Shown here piece by piece: positions 44,333 to 55,193 of a stretch of DNA of 64,000 nucleotides. Numbering within the stretch: position 1 is the stretch's first letter; the number at the start of each line of letters is the position of its first letter. This DNA is from Actinocorallia sp. API 0066 (lineage in GTDB: Bacteria > Actinomycetota > Actinomycetes > Streptosporangiales > Streptosporangiaceae). Location of the stretch: contig NZ_JAJLQY010000015.1 of assembly GCF_020991275.1 (NCBI RefSeq), forward strand, positions 62,001-126,000, read 5' to 3'. The notes under the pieces are model-generated. The model had not been told where the DNA came from. It saw only the letters and a list, made by a program, of their open reading frames with translations, and did no database searches. The translations under genes were made by a program, and so were the position numbers.

Positions 44333-46147
44333 ATGCGGATAAAACGGATACTTGTCGCGTTCGCCGTGCTCGGGGGGCTGCTGGCGGCACCGGGCGGGAC
44401 CGCCCACGCGGGGTCGTTCGCCGCCCCCTCGAAGTTCACGATCCCCGCGGCGGGCGAGCGCAGCACCGTCTTCAACGCGCTGGCCGACCAGATCCGGCTA
44501 CGCGAACGCGCCCGCCGGAAGGACCCGCGCGGCACCGTCAAACCACTGCCCGAGGCCAAGCGGAAGCGGATCGCGCAACCCGCCGCGCTCCGGCTCCGGC
44601 TCGTCTCCGGGCCACGTGTGGTCACCGCCGCCGCCGACCCCGCGCCGTCCGCGCTCGTGCTCTACGACAACGCCGGACCCTACGGATTCCTCGGCGAGCT
44701 GTACGGCATCGCGACCGCCAACCTCGCTGGCCACTTCGGGACGGTCACCGTCAAACCGGTACAGGATTATGTCGAAGGGGAAACGGAGGATTACACCGCC
44801 ACGATCTACATCGGCTCGACGTACTACGGCGGCGGTATCCCCGACGCGATCCCCGACGAGTTCTACGGCGACGTCGCCAGCACCACCAAGCCCGTCGTGT
44901 GGATCGGGATGAACATCTGGAACCTCGCCAACAAGATCGGCGTGTCCACGTTCAGCACCAAGTACGGGTGGGACGCCACCAACTCGTTCTTCGGCGGCGT
45001 CGGCACCGCGCGCGTCGACTACAAGGGCCAGCCCCTCACCCGGACCATCCCGACGGCGGGCGACGGCGGCGTCATCAAGCCCTACGTCACCAACCCCGGG
45101 ATCGTCACCCAGCTCGCCACCGGCCAGGACCCGGTGACGACACCCGCGACGCCCTTCCCGTGGGCCATCCGCTCGTCCAACCTGACCTACCTCGGCGAGA
45201 TCCCCTACGCGTACGTCAACGAGACCGACCGCGTCATCGCCTGGCATGACCTCCTGTTCGACGCGCTTGCCCCGGGTACCACGACCAGGCACCGGGCCAT
45301 ACTGCGGCTGGAGGACATCAGCCCGAACAGCGACCCCGAGGAACTCCAGGACATCGCCGAGTACCTCGCGCAGGCCGACATCCCCTACGCGTTCCAGCTC
45401 GTCCCGCGCTACGAGGACCCCAACGGCACCTACAACGACGACGTGCCCGAGACCGTCCAGCTCCAGGACAGCCCCGACCTCATCGAGGTCCTCGAATACA
45501 TGCTCAACAACGGCGGCCGCCTCATCCAGCACGGCTACACCCACCAGAACGGCAGCGCCCCCAACCCGTACAACGGGGTCACCGGCGATGACTTCGAGTT
45601 CTACCGGGCACACGTGGACGAGAACGACAGCGTGATCCTCGACGGGCCCGTCATCGGCGACTCCGTCACCTGGGCCACCAACCGGATCACCACCGGACGG
45701 GCGCTGTACGCCCAGCACGACCTGCCCACCCCGACGATCTGGACGACCCCGCACTACGCCGCCTCGATCGACGACTACACGGCCATCAAGAACATCTTCG
45801 CGGCAGCGCTCGAAAGGCGGATCTACCCGTCCGGGACGCTCGCGGGCGGCACCCTCGACTACACGAGGATCATCGGCCAGTTCTTCCCCTACCCGGTGAC
45901 CGACGTGACCGGCGGCAAGGTCCTGCCCGAGAACCTCGGCAACTACGAGCCCGAGGCGTACAACAACCACCCGGCGCGCTTCCCGGAGGACCTCATCCGG
46001 GCCGCCGAGTACAACCTCGCCGTACGCGACGGCTTCGCCTCGTTCTTCTACCACCCGTACTTCCCGGTGGCCCCCCTCCAGGAGACCGTCGAGGGCATCC
46101 AGAACCTCGGCTACACCTTCGTGGACCCGGCTACCGTCATCCCGTGA
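44333..46147 (+). CDS. Secreted DUF2334 deacetylase-like protein
   Basis: A 604-residue exported protein starting at ATG 44333 with a signal peptide (ILVAFAVLGGLLAAPGGTAHA). Residues 100-310 are a Rossmann-like accessory part (PSALVLYDNAGPYGFLGELYGIATANLAGHFG). From residue about 315 comes DUF2334, a carbohydrate-esterase-like barrel with ILRLEDISPNSDPEELQDIAEYLAQADIPYAFQLVPRY, LIQHGYTHQN and the late FFYHPYF. The Asp and His residues fit a deacetylase metal site. It probably de-N-acetylates the exported polymer, as PgaB or PelA do. The stop overlaps the GH gene start (GTGA). Confidence 0.9.
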   Translation: MRIKRILVAFAVLGGLLAAPGGTAHAGSFAAPSKFTIPAAGERSTVFNALADQIRLRERARRKDPRGTVKPLPEAKRKRIAQPAALRLRLVSGPRVVTAAADPAPSALVLYDNAGPYGFLGELYGIATANLAGHFGTVTVKPVQDYVEGETEDYTATIYIGSTYYGGGIPDAIPDEFYGDVASTTKPVVWIGMNIWNLANKIGVSTFSTKYGWDATNSFFGGVGTARVDYKGQPLTRTIPTAGDGGVIKPYVTNPGIVTQLATGQDPVTTPATPFPWAIRSSNLTYLGEIPYAYVNETDRVIAWHDLLFDALAPGTTTRHRAILRLEDISPNSDPEELQDIAEYLAQADIPYAFQLVPRYEDPNGTYNDDVPETVQLQDSPDLIEVLEYMLNNGGRLIQHGYTHQNGSAPNPYNGVTGDDFEFYRAHVDENDSVILDGPVIGDSVTWATNRITTGRALYAQHDLPTPTIWTTPHYAASIDDYTAIKNIFAAALERRIYPSGTLAGGTLDYTRIIGQFFPYPVTDVTGGKVLPENLGNYEPEAYNNHPARFPEDLIRAAEYNLAVRDGFASFFYHPYFPVAPLQETVEGIQNLGYTFVDPATVIP

Positions 46148-47169
46148 CGACCGCACGTCCGGCTTCGGCGCTGGCGGCGGCCCTCCTCCTGGGGGCCGCC
46201 GCCTGCGCCGCGCCGCACGCCGCCGCGCCGCCGCGCCAGTACGGCTTCGCCCTCCCGTCCTGGACGGAGACGGACTACGCCTCGCCGGTGGCGGCCACCC
46301 ATGTCGCGTCCCTCGCCGCGACGGGCGCGGGCTGGATCCAGCTCACCCCGACCTGGTACCAGTCCGACCCCGCCGCGTCGGCCATCGGACGCACCGAGGA
46401 GACCGCCTCGGACGCGTCACTCCGCCACGTCGTCGCGCTGGCCCGCAGGCACGGCCTGAAGATCCTCCTGAAACCGCACCTCGATCTTCCCGACGACCGC
46501 GACAGGGCCGAGATCCGCCCCCACGACCTCGCCGCCTGGTTCACCTCCTATCGCGCATTCCTCCTCCACTACGCCCGCCTGGCCGCCTCCCTCAACATCG
46601 AGGAGTTCGCCGTGGGCACCGAACTCGCCGGAGTCCAGGCCCACCGCACCGAGTGGCTGGACGTCATCGCCGCCGTCCGCGCCCTCTACCCGGGCGAACT
46701 CACCTACGCCGCCAACTACGACTCCTACAGCTCCGTCCCCTTCTGGGACGCCCTGGACCTCATCGGCATAGACGCCTACTGGCCCCTCGCCTCAAGCCCC
46801 ACCACCTCCGTCGCCGCCCTACGCCGAGCCTGGTCCCCCCACGTCAAAGCCCTGTCCTCCTTCTCCGCCACCCACAACAAGCCCATCCTCTTCACCGAAG
46901 CCGGTTACACCAGCCAACGCGGCACCACCACCGCCCCCTACTCCTGGACCCTCTCCACCACCCCCGCCCCAAAAGAACAAGCCGCCGCCTACAAGGCCCT
47001 CCTCACCACCTTCACCCCCCACCCCTGGTGGCACGGCGTCCACTTCTGGATGTGGGACGCCTTCCCCAACAGCGAAGACCCCACCCCCTCCCTCTCCTAC
47101 ACCCCCCACAAAAAACCAGCCGAAAAGCTACTCCCCCCTTACTTCCAGCACCCCACCCGCTCCCCATGA
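46144..47169 (+). CDS. Secreted GH113-like glycoside hydrolase
   Basis: A 341-residue TIM-barrel hydrolase with a lipoprotein-like signal (ALAAALLLGAAAC). Marks of GH113: WIQLTPTWYQSDPAAS, KILLKPHLDLPDD, the acid/base Glu in FAVGTELAGVQ, LIGIDAYWPLA, the nucleophile Glu in ILFTEAGYTS and HFWMWDAFPNSEDPTPSLSY. The family cuts beta-mannans or related chains. With DUF2334 upstream, it mirrors the deacetylase-hydrolase pairing of exopolysaccharide export systems. The third codon positions of the last 60 codons are unusually C-rich. The stop overlaps the next start (ATGA). Confidence 0.9.
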   Translation: MTTARPASALAAALLLGAAACAAPHAAAPPRQYGFALPSWTETDYASPVAATHVASLAATGAGWIQLTPTWYQSDPAASAIGRTEETASDASLRHVVALARRHGLKILLKPHLDLPDDRDRAEIRPHDLAAWFTSYRAFLLHYARLAASLNIEEFAVGTELAGVQAHRTEWLDVIAAVRALYPGELTYAANYDSYSSVPFWDALDLIGIDAYWPLASSPTTSVAALRRAWSPHVKALSSFSATHNKPILFTEAGYTSQRGTTTAPYSWTLSTTPAPKEQAAAYKALLTTFTPHPWWHGVHFWMWDAFPNSEDPTPSLSYTPHKKPAEKLLPPYFQHPTRSP

Positions 47170-49685: not shown

Positions 49686-51017
49686 TTAGCGGCCGGTGAG
49701 GGAGTGGGCGGGGCCGCCTACCTTGGTCCAGGTGGTGCCGGAGCCGGTCCACTGGAAGACGGCGGTGCGGTCGGGGCTGAGGCCGTAGACGTGGTTGCCG
49801 GTGACGGCGAACTGGGCGCCGGGGCCGCCGATCTTGGACCAGTTCTCGGGGGTGCCGTTGTAGCGGTAGAGGTCGCCGGTGGACGGGTTGGTGGCGAAGA
49901 GGCCCGCGCCGCCCGCGTAGAGGGTGGCTGCGGCGCCGCCCACCTTGGTCCAGGTGGTGCCGGAGCCGGTCCACTGGAAGACGGCGGTGCGGTCGGGGCT
50001 GAGGCCGTAGACGTGGTTGCCGGTGACGGCGAACTGGGCGCCGGGGCCGCCGACCTTGCTCCAGTTCTCGGGGGTGCCGTTGTAGCGGTAGAGGTCGCCG
50101 GTGGACGGGTTGGTGGCGAAGAGGCCCGCACCGCCCGCGTAGAGGGTGCCTGCGGCGCCGCCCACCTTGGTCCAGGTGGTGCCGGAGCCCGTCCACTGGA
50201 AGACGGCGGTGCCGTCGGGGGAGAGGCCGTACAGGCGGTCGCCGGCGACGGCGAACTGGCGGCCGGGGCCGCCGACCTTGCTCCAGTTCTCGGGGGTGCC
50301 GTTGTAGCGGTAGAGGTCACCCGTGGACGGGTTCGTGGCGAAAAGCCCCGCGCCGCCCGAGTACAGCGCGCCCGCCGCGCCGCCGACCTTTGTCCAGGCG
50401 GTGCCCTGGCCGGAGTACTGGAAGACGCCCGAGCGGTCCGGCGACAGGGCGAACAGGCCGCTCCCGCTCGGCACCGGGTTGCCGCAGTTGCGGCTGACCT
50501 CGAAGTGCTGGTTGTAGGACCAGTTGACGGGCAGGAGGCGGCCGTCGATGGTGGCCTGCACGACGGTGCCGTTCAGCTTCTGCTCGTAGTGCAGGTGCGC
50601 GCCCTGGGACGCGCCGGTGTTGCCGACGGTGCCGAGCTGGCGGCCGCGCTCCACGTTGGCGCCGACGGCGACGTCGCGCCGGTCCAGGTGCAGGTAGCGG
50701 GTCTGCCAGCCGCCGCCGTGGTCGATCACGACGTAGTTCCCGGCGCTGCTGGAGAACTCCGAGATCACGACGCGGCCGGACGCGGAGGCGAGCGTCGGCT
50801 GGCCGAGGGTGGGCCCGCTGGTCGGGATCATGTCGATCATGTACTGGTTGGCGTGGCCGCCGTGGGTGGAGGTCGTCCACCGCTGGCCGCAGGGGACGGG
50901 CAGTTGGAAGGCGGGCTTCTCCGCCGCTCCGGCCGGGGCGGCGGCGGGCAGGGCGGCGACCGGCGCGAGGAACAGCGTCGCCGCCGCCACGAGGCCGATC
51001 CTTCTGAGGATCTTCAT
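49686..51017 (-). CDS. Secreted M23 peptidase with seven-blade lectin-like propeller (copy 1)
   Basis: A 443-residue exported protein (signal peptide ILRRIGLVAAATLFLAPVAAL; AAGGAGA before ATG 51017). Residues 35-175 are a LytM/M23 domain with GGHANQYMID (His55, Asp62) and SQGAHLHYEQ (His143). Residues 187-443 are seven blades in a two-type order, SPDR-type blades of 34-37 residues alternating with ATNPSTGDLY-type blades of about 40. The blades read GLSPDRTAVFQWTGSGTTW then KVGG, and GLFATNPSTGDLYRYNGTPE then NWSKVGG. Sequence resembles tectonin/PLL-type lectins, so binding of a wall or surface sugar is likely. Very similar propellers end the next two genes. Confidence 0.92.
   Translation of the reverse strand: MKILRRIGLVAAATLFLAPVAALPAAAPAGAAEKPAFQLPVPCGQRWTTSTHGGHANQYMIDMIPTSGPTLGQPTLASASGRVVISEFSSSAGNYVVIDHGGGWQTRYLHLDRRDVAVGANVERGRQLGTVGNTGASQGAHLHYEQKLNGTVVQATIDGRLLPVNWSYNQHFEVSRNCGNPVPSGSGLFALSPDRSGVFQYSGQGTAWTKVGGAAGALYSGGAGLFATNPSTGDLYRYNGTPENWSKVGGPGRQFAVAGDRLYGLSPDGTAVFQWTGSGTTWTKVGGAAGTLYAGGAGLFATNPSTGDLYRYNGTPENWSKVGGPGAQFAVTGNHVYGLSPDRTAVFQWTGSGTTWTKVGGAAATLYAGGAGLFATNPSTGDLYRYNGTPENWSKIGGPGAQFAVTGNHVYGLSPDRTAVFQWTGSGTTWTKVGGPAHSLTGR
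49689..50459 (-). repeat. 222-base propeller repeat array, copy 1
   Basis: Coding repeats: the sequence TAGCGGTAGAGGTCGCC recurs with an exact 222-base period (49861, 50083, 50305). Each period encodes two blades (74 residues). Adjacent units are nearly identical over long stretches. Confidence 0.92.
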
Positions 51018-51055
51018 GCGTCTCCTTCGAGGGTGGGGGGTGCGAAGAGCGCGTG

Positions 51056-52777
51056 TCAGTCGGTGGTGATGCTCGCGGCGGGGCCGCCGATCCTGGCCCA
51101 GCCGAGGCTGAGGCCGGACCACTGGTAGACGCCGCTGCGGTCGGGGCTCAGCCCGTAGATGCGGTCTCCGGTGACGGCGAATTGTGCGCCGGGCCCGCCG
51201 ACCTTGCTCCAGCTCTGCGGGACGCCGCTGAACTTGTAGAGGTCGCCGGTGAGGGGGTTCGTGGCGAAGAGTCCGGCGCCGCCGCCGTACAGCGCGCCCG
51301 CCGCGCCGCCGACCCTGGTCCAGGTGGTGCCGGAGCCCGTCCACTGGAAGACGGCGCTGCGGTCGGGGCTCAGCCCGTACACGCGGTCGACGGTGACGGC
51401 GAACTGCGCGCCGGGTCCGCCGATCTTCGTCCAGTTCTCGGGGGTTCCGCTGTAGCGGTAGAGGTCGCCCGATGTCGGGTTTGTGGCGAAGAGTCCGGCC
51501 GGGCCCCCGTAGAGCCTGCCCGCCGGGCCGCCGACCTTGGTCCAGGTGGTGCCGGAGCCCGTCCACTGGTAGACGGCGCTCCGGTCGGGCCGCAGCCCGT
51601 AGAGCCTGCCGCCCGCGACGACGAACTGGGCGCCCGGTCCGCCGACCTTGCTCCAGTTCTCGGGTGTCCCGTTGTACTTGTAGAGGTCGCCCGTCGTCGG
51701 GTTCGTCGCGAACAGGTTGCCGTCGCCCCCGATGAGCGTCCCGGCCGCGCCGCCGATCCTGATCCAGGACGAGCCGCTGGTCCGCTGGTAGACGGCGCTC
51801 CGGTCCGGGCTCAGCCCGTACACGCGGTGCGGGGTGTACGGCCGCGCGCGCCAGCTCAGCCGTGCCAGGTCGACGCCGCCCGCGCCCCAGCCCGCGCTGC
51901 TCAGCCACAGGCTCCCGTCGGTGTCCGCGACGACCTCGGCGGCGTGTGACGGCAGCCTGCCCACCTGGCCGGACTGGGTGAACCGGAACGGGTCGGTGCT
52001 CGCGTACACCTCGGCCCCCACGTAGTCCGCGGTGGAGGAGGAGCCGCCGAGGAACAGGTGCCAGAGGCCGTTCCGCTGCATCACGTAGGGGGATTCGGTC
52101 CAGCCGTCTCCCACGGCGGTGTAGGCGATCTTCCGGGCGCTCCACGTGACGAGGTCGGTGCTGGTCCGGTAGGCGACGACGTCGCGGCCCCCGTTGGCGC
52201 GCTCCGTCGCGGTGTAGTACATGACCCACTGGGACCCGATCCGGGCGACCATCGGGTCGCGCGCCTCCCATCCGTCCCGGAACAGGGGGCCCGCCGCCCG
52301 GCGCGTCCAGTGGTACAGGTCGGTGGACGTGGCGAGGTTGATCTGGCTCCGGGACGCGTCGCCCACGGTCTGGCCGCCCGCGTAGAACATGTAGTACGTC
52401 GATCCGGAGCGGATGACGTGCGGCGCCCACAGGTGCGACTCCCCGTAGGAGGGGTCGACCGTCAACGCCATGGGGCGTTTTGTCCAGGGGCCGCGCAGGC
52501 TGGGCGCGGTGGCGTGCGCGAACTGGTCCTCGTCCTCGGGGGAGGCGGGTTCGGGGTGGGTGATGCCGAACAGGTGCCAGGTTCCGGTCGCCTCGTCCCG
52601 GATGAACGTGTGGTCGTTGATGTACCAGGGCCGGGTCTCTCCGACGCTCGGGTCGTAGATCCGGAAGAAGTCCCCGGTGGTCACGGACTCGGCGGGCGCG
52701 GCGGCGGCCGGGACGGCGGGTACCGTCCCGAGCGAGACCGCCACGAGGACGGCGGCGAGGGCGGTGCGGAGGTGCAC
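51056..52777 (-). CDS. Secreted GH43-like protein with the same seven-blade propeller
   Basis: A 573-residue exported protein starting at GTG 52777 (GGAG nine bases upstream; signal TALAAVLVAVSLGTVPAVPA). Residues 33-310 form a five-bladed GH43/GH32-like fold: YINDHTFIRDEATGTWHLFG (general base Asp55), GWEARDPMVARIGSQWVMYYTA (Asp174), DGWTESPYVMQRNGLWHLF (Glu228). This suggests arabinan, xylan or fructan cleavage. Residues 321-573 are seven blades like those of its neighbours, with variants TTGDLYKYNGTPENW and LTGDLYKFSGVPQSW. It lies 38 bases after the upstream-in-genome M23 gene start and is a separate unit behind a perfect hairpin. Confidence 0.9.
   Translation of the reverse strand: MHLRTALAAVLVAVSLGTVPAVPAAAAPAESVTTGDFFRIYDPSVGETRPWYINDHTFIRDEATGTWHLFGITHPEPASPEDEDQFAHATAPSLRGPWTKRPMALTVDPSYGESHLWAPHVIRSGSTYYMFYAGGQTVGDASRSQINLATSTDLYHWTRRAAGPLFRDGWEARDPMVARIGSQWVMYYTATERANGGRDVVAYRTSTDLVTWSARKIAYTAVGDGWTESPYVMQRNGLWHLFLGGSSSTADYVGAEVYASTDPFRFTQSGQVGRLPSHAAEVVADTDGSLWLSSAGWGAGGVDLARLSWRARPYTPHRVYGLSPDRSAVYQRTSGSSWIRIGGAAGTLIGGDGNLFATNPTTGDLYKYNGTPENWSKVGGPGAQFVVAGGRLYGLRPDRSAVYQWTGSGTTWTKVGGPAGRLYGGPAGLFATNPTSGDLYRYSGTPENWTKIGGPGAQFAVTVDRVYGLSPDRSAVFQWTGSGTTWTRVGGAAGALYGGGAGLFATNPLTGDLYKFSGVPQSWSKVGGPGAQFAVTGDRIYGLSPDRSGVYQWSGLSLGWARIGGPAASITTD
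51059..51817 (-). repeat. 222-base propeller repeat array, copy 2
   Basis: Seven blades (residues 321-573) encoded as alternating units with the same 222-base period, more diverged than copies 1 and 3. Units close to the 5' end match those of the adjacent M23 genes best. Confidence 0.85.
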
Positions 52778-52798
52778 GGTGGGGCTCCAGGGGGTTCC

Positions 52799-52831
52799 CC
52801 GTGGGCGGGCCGGGGGCCGGCCCGCCCACGG
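52799..52831. terminator. Perfect 14-base hairpin between the GH43-like and second M23 genes
   Basis: CCGTGGGCGGGCCG, loop GGGGC, then CGGCCCGCCCACGG pair without mismatch, 12 bases beyond the stop of the second M23 gene. It shows the three propeller genes are separate transcription units. Confidence 0.88.
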
Positions 52832-52842
52832 AACGGTGTCGG

Positions 52843-54186
52843 TTATCGGCCGGAGATGGAGTGCGCGGGGCCGCCGACCTGGACCCACGACGTGCCGGAC
52901 CCGGTCCACCGGAAGACCGCCTGGCCGTTGGGCGCGAGCCCGTACAGCTGGTCGGCGGTGACCGCGAACTGGCGGCCGGGACCGCCGACCTTGGCCCAGT
53001 TCTCGGGGGTGCCGCTGAACTTGTAGATGTCACCCGTGGACGGGTTCGTGGCGAAGAGTCCGGCGCCGCCCGCGTAGAGCTGGGCCGCCGCGCCGCCGAC
53101 CTTGGTCCACGCGGTGCCGGAGCCGTTCCACTGGAAGACGGCGGTCCGGTCGGGGCTCAGCCCGTAGAGGCGGCTGCCGGTGACGGCGAACTGGGCGCCG
53201 GGTCCGCCGACCTTGCTCCAGTTCTCGGGTGTCCCGTTGTACTTGTAGAGGTCGCCCGTGGACGGGTTGGTGGCGAAGAGTCCGGCGCCGCCCGCGTAGA
53301 GCTGGCCCGCCGCGCCCCCGACCTTCGTCCAGGTGGTGCCGGAGCCGTTCCACTGGAACACCGCGCTCCGGTCGGGGCTCAGCCCGTAGACGCGGTCGCC
53401 GCTGACGACGAACTGGGCGCCGGGTCCGCCGACCTTGCTCCAGTTCTCCGGCGTCCCGTTGTAGCGGTAGAGGTCGCCCGTGGACGGGTTCGTGGCGAAG
53501 ACTCCCGCCCCGCCCGTGATGAGCTGGCCCGCCGCGCCGCCGACCTTCGTCCACGCGTTGCCCTGGCCGGTGTACTGGAAGACGCCCGAGCGGTCCGGGG
53601 ACAGCGCGAACAGGCCGCTCCCGCTGGGCACCGGGGTGCCGCAGTTGGTGCTCACCATGTCGATCGGGCGGTCCGGGTGCATGATCAGCAACTGGCCCTG
53701 CAGCCTCGAATGGACGATGTGCTGGTTCTCGGCGTTCTGGTCGCTGTTCGGGTTGTAGAGCTGCTCGTAGTGCAGGTGGGGGTAGTTGGCTCCGACGGAG
53801 CCCATGTAGCCGATGACGTCGCCGCGCCTGACCGTGGTGCCGGGCCGGGCGACGTTGGTCATGTGGAGGTACAGGGTGAACCAGCCGTTGCCGTGCCGGA
53901 TCTCCAGCCCGCCGGGCGAGACGTTCTCGTGCACGTAGCCGTCGGCCGACGCCAGGATCGGGCTGCCCGTCTGCATCCCGTACCGGTACATGTCGATCTT
54001 CTTGTCGGTGGGGTTGTGGCCCCCGTACGTCTTCAGCTCGATCCTGGTGTTGCAGGGGAACGGCAGCCGGAAGTCCGGCCTGGTGTCCTCCATGCCCGCC
54101 TGCGCCGAGGTCGCGACCGACACGGCGGCGAGCGGCGCGAGGAACAGCGCCGCCGCGGCCGTGAGGCCGACCCTTGTGATCCTCAT
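52843..54186 (-). CDS. Secreted M23 peptidase with seven-blade lectin-like propeller (copy 2)
   Basis: A 447-residue exported protein with signal VGLTAAAALFLAPLAAVSVATSAQA and GGAGACAC before ATG 54186. The M23 domain shows GGHNPTDKKIDMYRYG (His57, Asp65) and ANYPHLHYEQL (His139), with an insert NPNSDQNAENQ and CNTRIELKTY at its start. From residue 191 seven blades follow, almost identical in order to copy 1 (GLFALSPDRSGVF then NPSTGDLYRYNGTPENWSK). Domain order, blade number and near identity suggest recent duplication from a common parent. It should cut peptidoglycan cross-bridges of the own or foreign wall. Confidence 0.92.
   Translation of the reverse strand: MRITRVGLTAAAALFLAPLAAVSVATSAQAGMEDTRPDFRLPFPCNTRIELKTYGGHNPTDKKIDMYRYGMQTGSPILASADGYVHENVSPGGLEIRHGNGWFTLYLHMTNVARPGTTVRRGDVIGYMGSVGANYPHLHYEQLYNPNSDQNAENQHIVHSRLQGQLLIMHPDRPIDMVSTNCGTPVPSGSGLFALSPDRSGVFQYTGQGNAWTKVGGAAGQLITGGAGVFATNPSTGDLYRYNGTPENWSKVGGPGAQFVVSGDRVYGLSPDRSAVFQWNGSGTTWTKVGGAAGQLYAGGAGLFATNPSTGDLYKYNGTPENWSKVGGPGAQFAVTGSRLYGLSPDRTAVFQWNGSGTAWTKVGGAAAQLYAGGAGLFATNPSTGDIYKFSGTPENWAKVGGPGRQFAVTADQLYGLAPNGQAVFRWTGSGTSWVQVGGPAHSISGR
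52846..53616 (-). repeat. 222-base propeller repeat array, copy 3
   Basis: Seven-blade array of the second M23 gene, residues 191-447. It has the same lengths and order as copy 1 (both start GLFALSPDRSGVFQY and end in GGPAHS plus a few residues). Confidence 0.88.
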
Positions 54187-54218: not shown

Positions 54219-55193
54219 TCAGGCTTTGCGGAGCCGGCCGATGATGCCGTCGATGTCCCGGATGAACATGTCCGGCCGGATCCAGTGGCCACCGGGCCGT
54301 TCGAGCGGCTCGTGCGGGATGCCCGCCTGACGGAGCAGGGAGCTGAACTCGCGGTGGCCGTTGAGGACGTGGCTCTCGTTGAACCAGTCCCAGACGGTGT
54401 CGGGGCTGGTCCCGGCGACGAGGAAGACCCGCTTGTTGCGGTAGCTCTCGATCCGCTGGACCGGGTTGTCGGCGTTGATCCGGTTCTGGTCCCACGGGGC
54501 GCCGTAGACCATTCCGCCGCCGAGCTCGACCGCCGCCGACGACGCGTTGGCCCAGTGCACGACCGCGCCGCCGTCGCGGCGGAGGCTGGCCGGGCCCGAA
54601 TGCGAGCTGACCGAGGCGAAATGGCCGTAGTACTTGGCCGCGTACTTCAGCGCGCCGAATCCACCCATGGAGAATCCGGCGACGGCCCTGCCGTTGTATT
54701 CGGCGTAGGTGCGGAAGTTCGCGTCGATCCACGGCAGGAGTTGCGCGATGTGGAACGTCTCCCAGTTGCGGGGGCCGACGTTCGAGTGGACCGGGTTGGA
54801 GTACCAGCCCGCCGCGCCGCCGTCGGGCATGACGACGATGATGCGTTTTCCGGCGGTCCAGTCGCGGACGCGGTGGCGGTCGAACGTGATGAAGTCCTGC
54901 TGTCCGCCGTGGAACAGATAGAGAACGGGATAGCGGAGGCCGCTGTTGTGGTATCCGTCCGGCAGCAGGACATTGACGCCGGGATTCCATCCGATCGCGT
55001 TTGTCGCGAACCGGTAGTACCGCATCCGGTGGTCGGCCTCGTTGCGGTCGACGACGCGCAACCCGAACCCGTCGCCGACGGCGCCGGCCGCCGACGCGGG
55101 GATCAGGGCGCCGCCGGCGCCGACGGTCAGCGCGGCGGTGAGACCGCCCGCGGCTTTCAACACACCCCTGCGGGTGAGAATCAACTCACTCAA
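54219..55193 (-). CDS. Tat-type secreted esterase (alpha/beta hydrolase)
   Basis: A 324-residue exported hydrolase. The Tat-like signal is LTRRGVLKAAGGLTAALTVGAG. The mature part matches the esterase D/Ag85 class: LRYPVLYLFHGGQQDF, RIIVVMPDGGAAGWY, LLPWIDANFRTYAEYNGRAVAGFSMGGFGALKYA with nucleophile Ser in GFSMGG, and ERPGGHWIRPDMF with the His. It may de-esterify polymers such as xylan or act as an acyltransferase. It lies 32 bases upstream-in-transcription of the M23 gene, so the two could be co-transcribed. Confidence 0.9.
   Translation of the reverse strand: MSELILTRRGVLKAAGGLTAALTVGAGGALIPASAAGAVGDGFGLRVVDRNEADHRMRYYRFATNAIGWNPGVNVLLPDGYHNSGLRYPVLYLFHGGQQDFITFDRHRVRDWTAGKRIIVVMPDGGAAGWYSNPVHSNVGPRNWETFHIAQLLPWIDANFRTYAEYNGRAVAGFSMGGFGALKYAAKYYGHFASVSSHSGPASLRRDGGAVVHWANASSAAVELGGGMVYGAPWDQNRINADNPVQRIESYRNKRVFLVAGTSPDTVWDWFNESHVLNGHREFSSLLRQAGIPHEPLERPGGHWIRPDMFIRDIDGIIGRLRKA

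Follow-up and report, generated by a model that had tools for sequence, protein, structure and literature searches.

Within a window of 64,000 nucleotides from the 7.0-Mb genome (44 contigs) of Actinocorallia sp. API 0066 (contig NZ_JAJLQY010000015.1, positions 62,001 to 126,000; "the window" is this whole stretch, and the genome is called G000 below), the minus strand carries four consecutive genes, D, C, B and A, encoding an esterase, an M23 peptidase, a GH43/GH32-like glycosidase and a second M23 peptidase. The last three products all end in a seven-bladed propeller of the tectonin type, and in related gene clusters of other genomes either the propeller or the catalytic half in front of it has been exchanged. 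The best reading of this arrangement, and a moderately probable one, is an antibacterial operon for wall lysis in which a shared and replaceable lectin would aim the enzymes.

One propeller on three enzymes

The C-termini of A, B and C each consist of seven blades of 37 amino acids (aa), belonging to two types that alternate (the last blade has 34 aa and the first blade of B 36), that is, 3.5 copies of a two-blade unit of 74 aa or 222 nucleotides (nt). Tandem Repeats Finder (TRF) detects arrays of period 222 in all three genes, with 3.2-3.3 copies and 79-91% matches. All three modules lie above the gathering cut-off of Pfam family PF19193, Tectonin (30 bits; scores in Table 1). An AlphaFold2 model of the C module, built with 7 aligned modules, reaches a predicted local distance difference test (pLDDT) score of 95.5 and has 28 strands (7 x 4). 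Searched with Foldseek, this model finds the Laccaria bicolor tectonin Lb-Tec2 (5fsb) at the top (1.6e-10) and carp fishelectin next; the template modelling (TM) scores of the match to 5fsb are only 0.61 and 0.68 (root mean square deviation 4.7), perhaps due to the differing blade numbers of the solved tectonins. A profile of eight rows also reaches 5fsb in the PDB, at 1.9e-10 and ranked below a designed protein. Used as a single sequence or a three-row profile, the propeller found no tectonin in the PDB, and in none of these forms (single sequence, three rows or eight rows) did it match a PLL lectin there. On the evidence of Pfam, the profile and the predicted fold, the propeller belongs to the tectonins; its sequence is not that of a PLL. 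No further copy of the module was reported elsewhere in G000 at an E value of 0.001; for such genome scans alignment A1 was used instead of the Pfam tectonin model, which is weak in them (it recovered one of the three window modules).

The order of the genes on the strand is D-C-B-A, with gaps of 32, 65 and 38 nt and clear ribosome-binding sites for A and C. D probably belongs to the same operon, and the four genes are presumably co-transcribed; scans for promoters (0 found) and terminators (1 found) were uninformative on this point. The Tat-type label of D was read off its twin-arginine N-terminus. Both M23 matches (82.4 bits in A, 58.2 in C) are above the PF01551 cut-off of 28.7, and in both sequences H..D and HLH motifs are visible, which we take to be the M23 metal-ligand motif (His/Asp/HxH). 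A and C share 41-42% identity in the catalytic half, against 84% in the propeller.

The catalytic half of B matches Pfam Glyco_hydro_32N above its cut-off (2.3e-10) and Glyco_hydro_43 below it (4.6e-07; 29.9 bits against 32.2). Its homologues span this cut-off of PF04616, with 28.6 bits in G098 (below) and 36.0, 50.0 and 54.3 in G151, G001 and G429 (above). Of 20 PDB sequences listed as matches to B, 12 are arabinanases, and other GH43/GH32 enzymes are also among its PDB matches; with a four-row profile of the GH43 half, the top matches are two 'beta-galactosidase' chains, ahead of the arabinanases. Residues D26, D145 and E199, presumably the catalytic Asp/Asp/Glu, are invariant across four homologues; the Asp of an ARDP motif and the Glu of a TESP motif align with arabinanase Asp and Glu, and the first Asp falls outside the alignment. 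An AlphaFold2 model of this half, built from 2 sequences, has a pLDDT of 53.5.

The initial annotation had described two M23 genes and a GH43-like gene side by side, each ending in seven alternating blades, with an unrelated catalytic domain in the middle gene and 222 bases as the building unit; open reading frames (ORFs), Pfam, the division into blades and the TRF arrays all agree with this. It had also likened the blades to tectonin/PLL lectins, of which the tectonin part stood (Pfam, profile and Foldseek) and the PLL part, with no PLL found in the PDB, did not.

Exchange of lectins and of catalytic halves

In related genomes (where genes were called by codon-position scoring, so that starts are approximate) the enzymes have changed at both ends. 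G098 carries a gene for an NlpC/P60-like enzyme with a tectonin propeller, followed by a GH43-tectonin gene, and blastn aligns this locus (L041, 10141->7574) with window positions 53613->51058 in unbroken homology (77.9% over 2595 columns). The junction falls in the first codons of the propeller of C; upstream of it there is no DNA match, and there the proteins of C and its G098 counterpart are alike only in the signal peptide.

On the other side, the lectin differs in G001, a genome of the window's genus. There an esterase gene (81%) is followed by genes for an M23 peptidase, an SLT_3 lysozyme-like enzyme and a GH43 enzyme (54%), all three with PLL propellers; that of the M23 gene matches solved Photorhabdus lectins at 1.9e-64 (PLL3). 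In DNA, G001 and the window are homologous only in the esterase gene and over part of the GH43 half. The same four-gene PLL operon, headed by a relative of D, occurs in G429, which belongs to another family, and in both genomes a small gene and then one for a Ser/Thr kinase come next (by Pfam in G429, by reading the sequences in G001). The propellers of the M23 and SLT genes are 92.5% identical to each other in G001 and 98.5% in G429, as against 75.9% and 75.3% between the genomes; identical codons at identical residues number 249/289 and 303/309 within genomes and 141/234 and 136/233 between them. As identity within each genome exceeds that between genomes, silent codons agreeing, these two modules look to have been homogenised since the two lineages separated; the catalytic halves that carry them are unrelated, and their order is the same in both genomes. 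The GH43 gene of G001 has a PLL module that is only 40% like those of its neighbours.

The lectin type is uniform in four of the five genomes found with the GH43 domain (G000, G001, G098 and G429; G151 is the exception), and in those four the GH43-lectin gene adjoins a gene for a peptidoglycan hydrolase with the same lectin type.

Within the window, blades of the same type are 59-97% identical in DNA (59-92% between genes), and the highest values lie within genes (A4-A6 97%, A3-A5 93%, C3-C5 92%). For odd blades, likeness is 76.0% inside one gene, 76.8% at matching positions of different genes and 72.8% otherwise; for even blades the values are 85.0%, 84.7% and 84.0%. Identical codons at identical residues are more frequent than codon usage predicts in every class of blade pairs: 513/654 in the same gene (expected 458), 421/548 at the same position of another gene (365) and 914/1271 at other positions of another gene (837). 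Gene A holds an exact internal repeat of 112 nt (0/60 null runs as long, null maximum 67), and the corresponding repeats of C and B measure 40 nt (0/60) and 32 nt (7/60). Among the three gene pairs tested, the only tract between genes that stands out is one of 59 nt shared by blade 2 of B and blade 4 of C (3/1000 null runs as long), a candidate conversion tract. Between A and C the longest exact match measures 28 nt, and between A and B 41 nt; both were discarded as such candidates, falling within the codon-resampling null (831/1000 and 67/1000 as long).

As wholes, the modules of B and C pair with those of their G098 counterparts, which excludes wholesale homogenisation of the window modules and rules out whole-module conversion as the cause of their similarity. 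In a tree of 18 rows the module of C clusters with that of the G098 NlpC-like gene and the module of B with that of the G098 GH43 gene (supports 95/95 and 99/98); an eight-row tree gives 88/95 and 93/96 for the same two pairs. In approximately unbiased (AU) tests on whole modules, A, B and C as one clade are rejected (p-AU 0.008), as are the two G098 modules as one clade (0.0018); a tree that holds A with C instead is not (0.083). The signal is uneven along the module. Blades 1 and 7 favour the orthologous trees, the three within-genome-like alternatives being rejected at p-AU 4.9e-05 or less; for blades 2-6 the AU test rejects none of the five trees (p 0.15-0.56). Blade 1 of B is 66% like C and 84% like its G098 orthologue, as against 85, 85 and 86% to C and 77, 76 and 82% to the orthologue in blades 3, 4 and 5. 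Patchy exchange among blades 2-6 would give such a pattern, and a lack of signal might do so too; the 59-nt tract and the loss of orthology signal in blades 2-6 allow for patchy conversion.

The shuffling of modules that the initial annotation had proposed is therefore borne out, different catalytic halves standing before the same propeller and PLL replacing tectonin in related operons. Its gene conversion holds at most in patchy form, the trees excluding the wholesale kind, and its description of the repeats as nearly identical within and between genes was overstated in view of the range of 59-97%. The alignment of blade DNA that it had called for found that likeness within genes does not exceed likeness between genes at every position.

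Table 1. Coordinates of the genes, domains, repeats and junctions discussed (window positions unless a locus is named)
Feature	Position	Strand	Evidence or remark
Gene D, secreted esterase of the Tat type (PF00756) lacking a propeller; opens the presumed operon; start codon uncertain	54219..55193	-	Pfam Esterase 7.3e-44
Gene C, M23 peptidase + seven-blade tectonin propeller; signal peptide by eye	52843..54186	-	ORF, Pfam, blade split
M23 domain of C, residues 69-144	53755..53982	-	Pfam 9.8e-16
Domain-swap junction: DNA homology to G098 NlpC-like-tectonin gene starts (53613) and runs through B	53610..53619	-	blastn
Tectonin propeller of C, 7 blades	52846..53619	-	Pfam Tectonin 47.8 bits (cut-off 30), TRF, AlphaFold2, Foldseek
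222-nt array of C	52870-53584	-	TRF
59-nt tract, blade 4 of C (partner of tract in B)	53201..53259	-	
Gene B, GH43/GH32-like glycosidase + seven-blade tectonin propeller; GTG start, signal peptide by eye	51056..52777	-	
GH32N/GH43-like catalytic match of B	52118..52591	-	Pfam GH32N 2.3e-10; GH43/GH32 enzymes among PDB matches
Tectonin propeller of B	51059..51829	-	Pfam Tectonin 33.0 bits, TRF
222-nt array of B	51119-51828	-	TRF
59-nt tract, blade 2 of B, shared exactly with blade 4 of C (candidate for conversion)	51636..51694	-	
Gene A, M23 peptidase + seven-blade tectonin propeller; signal peptide by eye	49686..51017	-	
M23 domain of A, residues 71-153	50559..50807	-	Pfam 2.8e-23
Tectonin propeller of A	49689..50462	-	Pfam Tectonin 50.6 bits
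222-nt array of A, most homogeneous of the three	49708-50438	-	TRF 91%
Actinoallomurus iriomotensis GH43-tectonin + DUF2961/FG-GAP pair	L042:9455-14442		Same contig as L037

Proposed function of the operon and competing explanations

We suggest that the four genes (esterase, M23-tectonin, GH43-tectonin, M23-tectonin) would export enzymes acting jointly on the envelope of other bacteria. The N-terminal halves would cut wall polymers, M23 at peptidoglycan cross-links and the GH43-like domain in a wall polysaccharide, and the repeated tectonin sites would bind one surface glycan with avidity and so bring the three enzymes to the same cells, where each would cut its own bond at the lectin-bound envelope. 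Having one lectin type per operon (in the PLL version, one sequence on two enzymes) would keep the enzymes on the same cell. The lectin would be an exchangeable part, as would the catalytic half before it, and by analogy with umbrella toxins (as described in passages of PMC13274773) its exchange would change or restore the target. A ligand shared by the three propellers and a foreign wall as target are plausible. Tectonins and PLLs may be equivalents for one ligand class, since both are reported, in passages of PMC12203525, to recognise O-methylated sugars.

Several observations weigh against this proposal. In G098, the NlpC match to Pfam (20.3 bits) lies below the cut-off of 23, as does the Tectonin match of the GH43 gene (28.7, cut-off 30). 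In Actinoallomurus (G151) the GH43-tectonin gene comes 14 nt after the gene of a DUF2961 enzyme whose FG-GAP repeats match neither lectin profile (tectonin or PLL). Compared over short stretches, the M23 half of G001 is only 26-38% like those of A and C; the three halves are not close relatives, and the equivalence of these operons therefore rests on the esterase and the GH43 enzyme. A GH113 gene lies 2.5 kb from the operon. Related tectonins also stand alone or (by eye) behind membrane stretches, so that a tectonin by itself does not signify attack, and because tectonin propellers occur in human TECPR1 and TECPR2, the fold alone is no proof of sugar binding.

The lectin could instead bind a wall polymer of the producer and so position autolysins and a trimming glycosidase that serve its growth, branching or sporulation. 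The M23, NlpC/P60 and SLT families do include housekeeping wall hydrolases, as is generally known, and a lectin-free M23 gene lies beside the esterase in 3 of 17 other esterase neighbourhoods (L100, L103 and L105). Such remodelling nevertheless seems rather unlikely given the patchy distribution of the GH43 domain, which was found in 4/297 genomes of the family, 2/384 in a draw from the phylum (one of the two being G000) and 2/3 of the window's genus (1/8 in the genus of G151 and 1/5 in that of G098); a changing target would better fit the replacement of one lectin type by another, and the same tectonin is also fused to nuclease domains. Scavenging of plant or fungal polysaccharides, with the esterase and the GH43-like enzyme digesting plant arabinan or fructan and the lectin serving as a carbohydrate-binding module, would suit the nearest PDB matches of D (feruloyl/CE1-type esterases), the arabinanases listed for B and its match to GH32N, a family of fructan enzymes. 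The GH113 gene (a mannanase family) and a DUF2334 gene, which lie on the plus strand with a four-base overlap (window 44366-47169, about 2.5 kb from the operon end), would suit it too. This explanation is quite improbable in the face of M23 domains in two of the four genes and of the lysozyme-like and NlpC/P60-like enzymes added in relatives, and we know of no use of these three kinds of enzyme on plant walls.

Finally, the modules might share no function at all, the repeats having spread by recombination between neighbours and the uniformity of lectins being a by-product of conversion without selection for a ligand. The strong homogenisation of the two PLL copies within genomes and the 112-nt repeat of A mean that recombination alone can keep copies alike, and the neighbour of the Actinoallomurus gene is tagged differently. 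This we regard as very improbable: the window modules keep their orthologous grouping, in blades 1 and 7 and as whole modules, and are all tectonins nonetheless, so that recombination is not what keeps the three alike; the module of the G001 GH43 gene, 40% like its neighbours', is still a PLL.

Returning to an attack on foreign walls, the target could be envelopes of the Mycobacteriales type. The esterase would open ester-linked lipid, the GH43-like enzyme would cut arabinogalactan and the M23, NlpC and lysozyme domains peptidoglycan, interchangeable tectonins and PLLs would dock these enzymes on O-methylated surface glycans, and gene conversion would keep the aiming parts identical on otherwise unrelated enzymes. 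We consider such a modular weapon unlikely. Its arabinogalactan component draws on the one DUF2961 neighbour in Actinoallomurus, the arabinanase matches of B and the lectin habits of distant relatives. DUF2961, which we take to be GH172, was found in one of the five genomes tested, not in G000, and DUF4185 in none of the five (the controls were silent in the same search); in addition, 'beta-galactosidase' chains outrank arabinanases as matches of the GH43 half. Passages of PMC10115798 report that DUF2961 enzymes include some that cleave D-arabinan in mycobacterial arabinogalactan, and passages of PMC12203525 that PLL lectins bind an O-methylated disaccharide of a mycobacterial glycolipid (apparent KD of PLL2 6.1 nM).

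Known systems and relatives of the module

Lb-Tec2 and fishelectin, to which the window modules are alike in profile, PF19193 match and predicted fold, have six blades and no fused enzyme, their structures comprising 226-237 residues; the window modules have seven blades of two alternating types and are placed C-terminally on secreted enzymes. The Photorhabdus PLLs are lectins that are likewise not known to carry a fused enzyme, and the modules of G001 belong to the same family as these PLL/PHL lectins, unlike those of the window. According to its title, structure 5fsb holds an O-methylated sugar, and PLLs bind fucosylated and O-methylated sugars (passages of PMC12203525). In Streptomyces umbrella particles, exchange of the lectin has been shown experimentally to change the target species (passages of PMC13274773). 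According to the same passages, UmbA proteins are secreted actinomycete proteins with exchangeable propeller lectins and an antibacterial role, which the window enzymes would share. UmbA combines a trypsin-like domain with its lectin and serves a toxin particle, whereas in the window each lectin sits on its own enzyme. A trypsin-like domain has no Pfam match in A, B or C.

A literature search, with most subscription papers outside its reach, found no published description of this operon. Its putative aiming domain is common to several different enzymes and is replaced as a type between related operons, and in the PLL operons a homogenised sequence is shared by genes with unrelated catalytic halves. 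From this follows a testable claim on how bacteria might direct a number of extracellular enzymes to one target, and the matched sets (same GH43 with a different lectin, same lectin with a different peptidase) would separate aim from cut.

The tectonin module was found in 23/297 genomes of the family and in 6/394 of the class, three of the six from that same family (G000 is in both counts); the esterase occurs in 16/297 genomes of the family at E 1e-60. At loci L100, L103 and L105 the M23 gene next to the relative of D is divergently transcribed (L100: M23 and PG_binding by Pfam). G002, of the window's genus, has no tectonin, PLL, GH43 or esterase at the thresholds used. Phage records yielded no match to the window tectonin; viral contigs held three weak GH43 relatives. 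Loci with several tagged enzymes are few: the window, G098, G151 and the type of G001 and G429.

Our survey of modules comprises 48 gene models (29 tectonin, 19 PLL), among them the three of the window and the Actinoallomurus gene counted twice (L037 and L042). Looking for the module on other enzymes, as the initial annotation had advised, was productive: it also occurs on NlpC/P60-like, nuclease-domain and phospholipase A2 proteins. Tectonins of the survey stand alone, follow an apparent transmembrane stretch or (in L072, by eye) a protein kinase, or precede phospholipase A2; the last arrangement, with an N-terminal propeller, is that of L034 (by Pfam) and L035 (by eye) from Streptomyces. At L046-L049, L051, L054, L071 and L072 an apparent transmembrane stretch precedes the tectonin, with a small basic N-terminal domain or a Ser/Thr kinase (L072), all by eye, and these proteins look like glycan sensors. 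PLL-type propellers are found on SLT_3 and GH25 (L135) enzymes and on M10 metalloproteases (L136 by Pfam, L139 and L141 by eye), and at L133 and L134 behind N-terminal parts without a Pfam name.

Among 72,556 plasmid records, 21 match the tectonin, 20 from Streptomyces and one from Kitasatospora; the 15 matches listed are annotated as phospholipase A2 (7), nuclease (5), tectonin protein (1) and hypothetical (2). Four large multidomain proteins of Streptomyces plasmids (L157-L160) carry the same tectonin (56-58% identical to that of the window), placed N-terminally and in two sets of blades, and are not wall hydrolases. Three have nuclease domains at the C-terminus (NucA/NucB, Endonuclea_NS_2 and a CdiA-CT RNase A with a pretoxin HINT domain), the fourth having no named toxin domain, and two of these three have a small gene of unknown family close downstream. 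The gene after one of these proteins is annotated as SMI1/KNR4, a common immunity family, though Pfam found nothing in it. The four proteins look like tectonin-aimed polymorphic toxins.

Recent blade amplification is shared with the highly repetitive beta-propellers of Pereira and Lupas (2022), who describe it, in passages of PMC9218822, as frequent in Actinobacteria, with a single case, the first known to them, of amplification from a two-blade fragment. A two-blade amplification unit in a seven-bladed ring is unusual. Such a unit is present in all three window genes and, beyond that case, in the stand-alone tectonins L043:8994-9437 and L044:8371-8814 of two other genomes, whose 222-nt two-blade repeats are 98-99% identical, which suggests that the unit was amplified recently there too.

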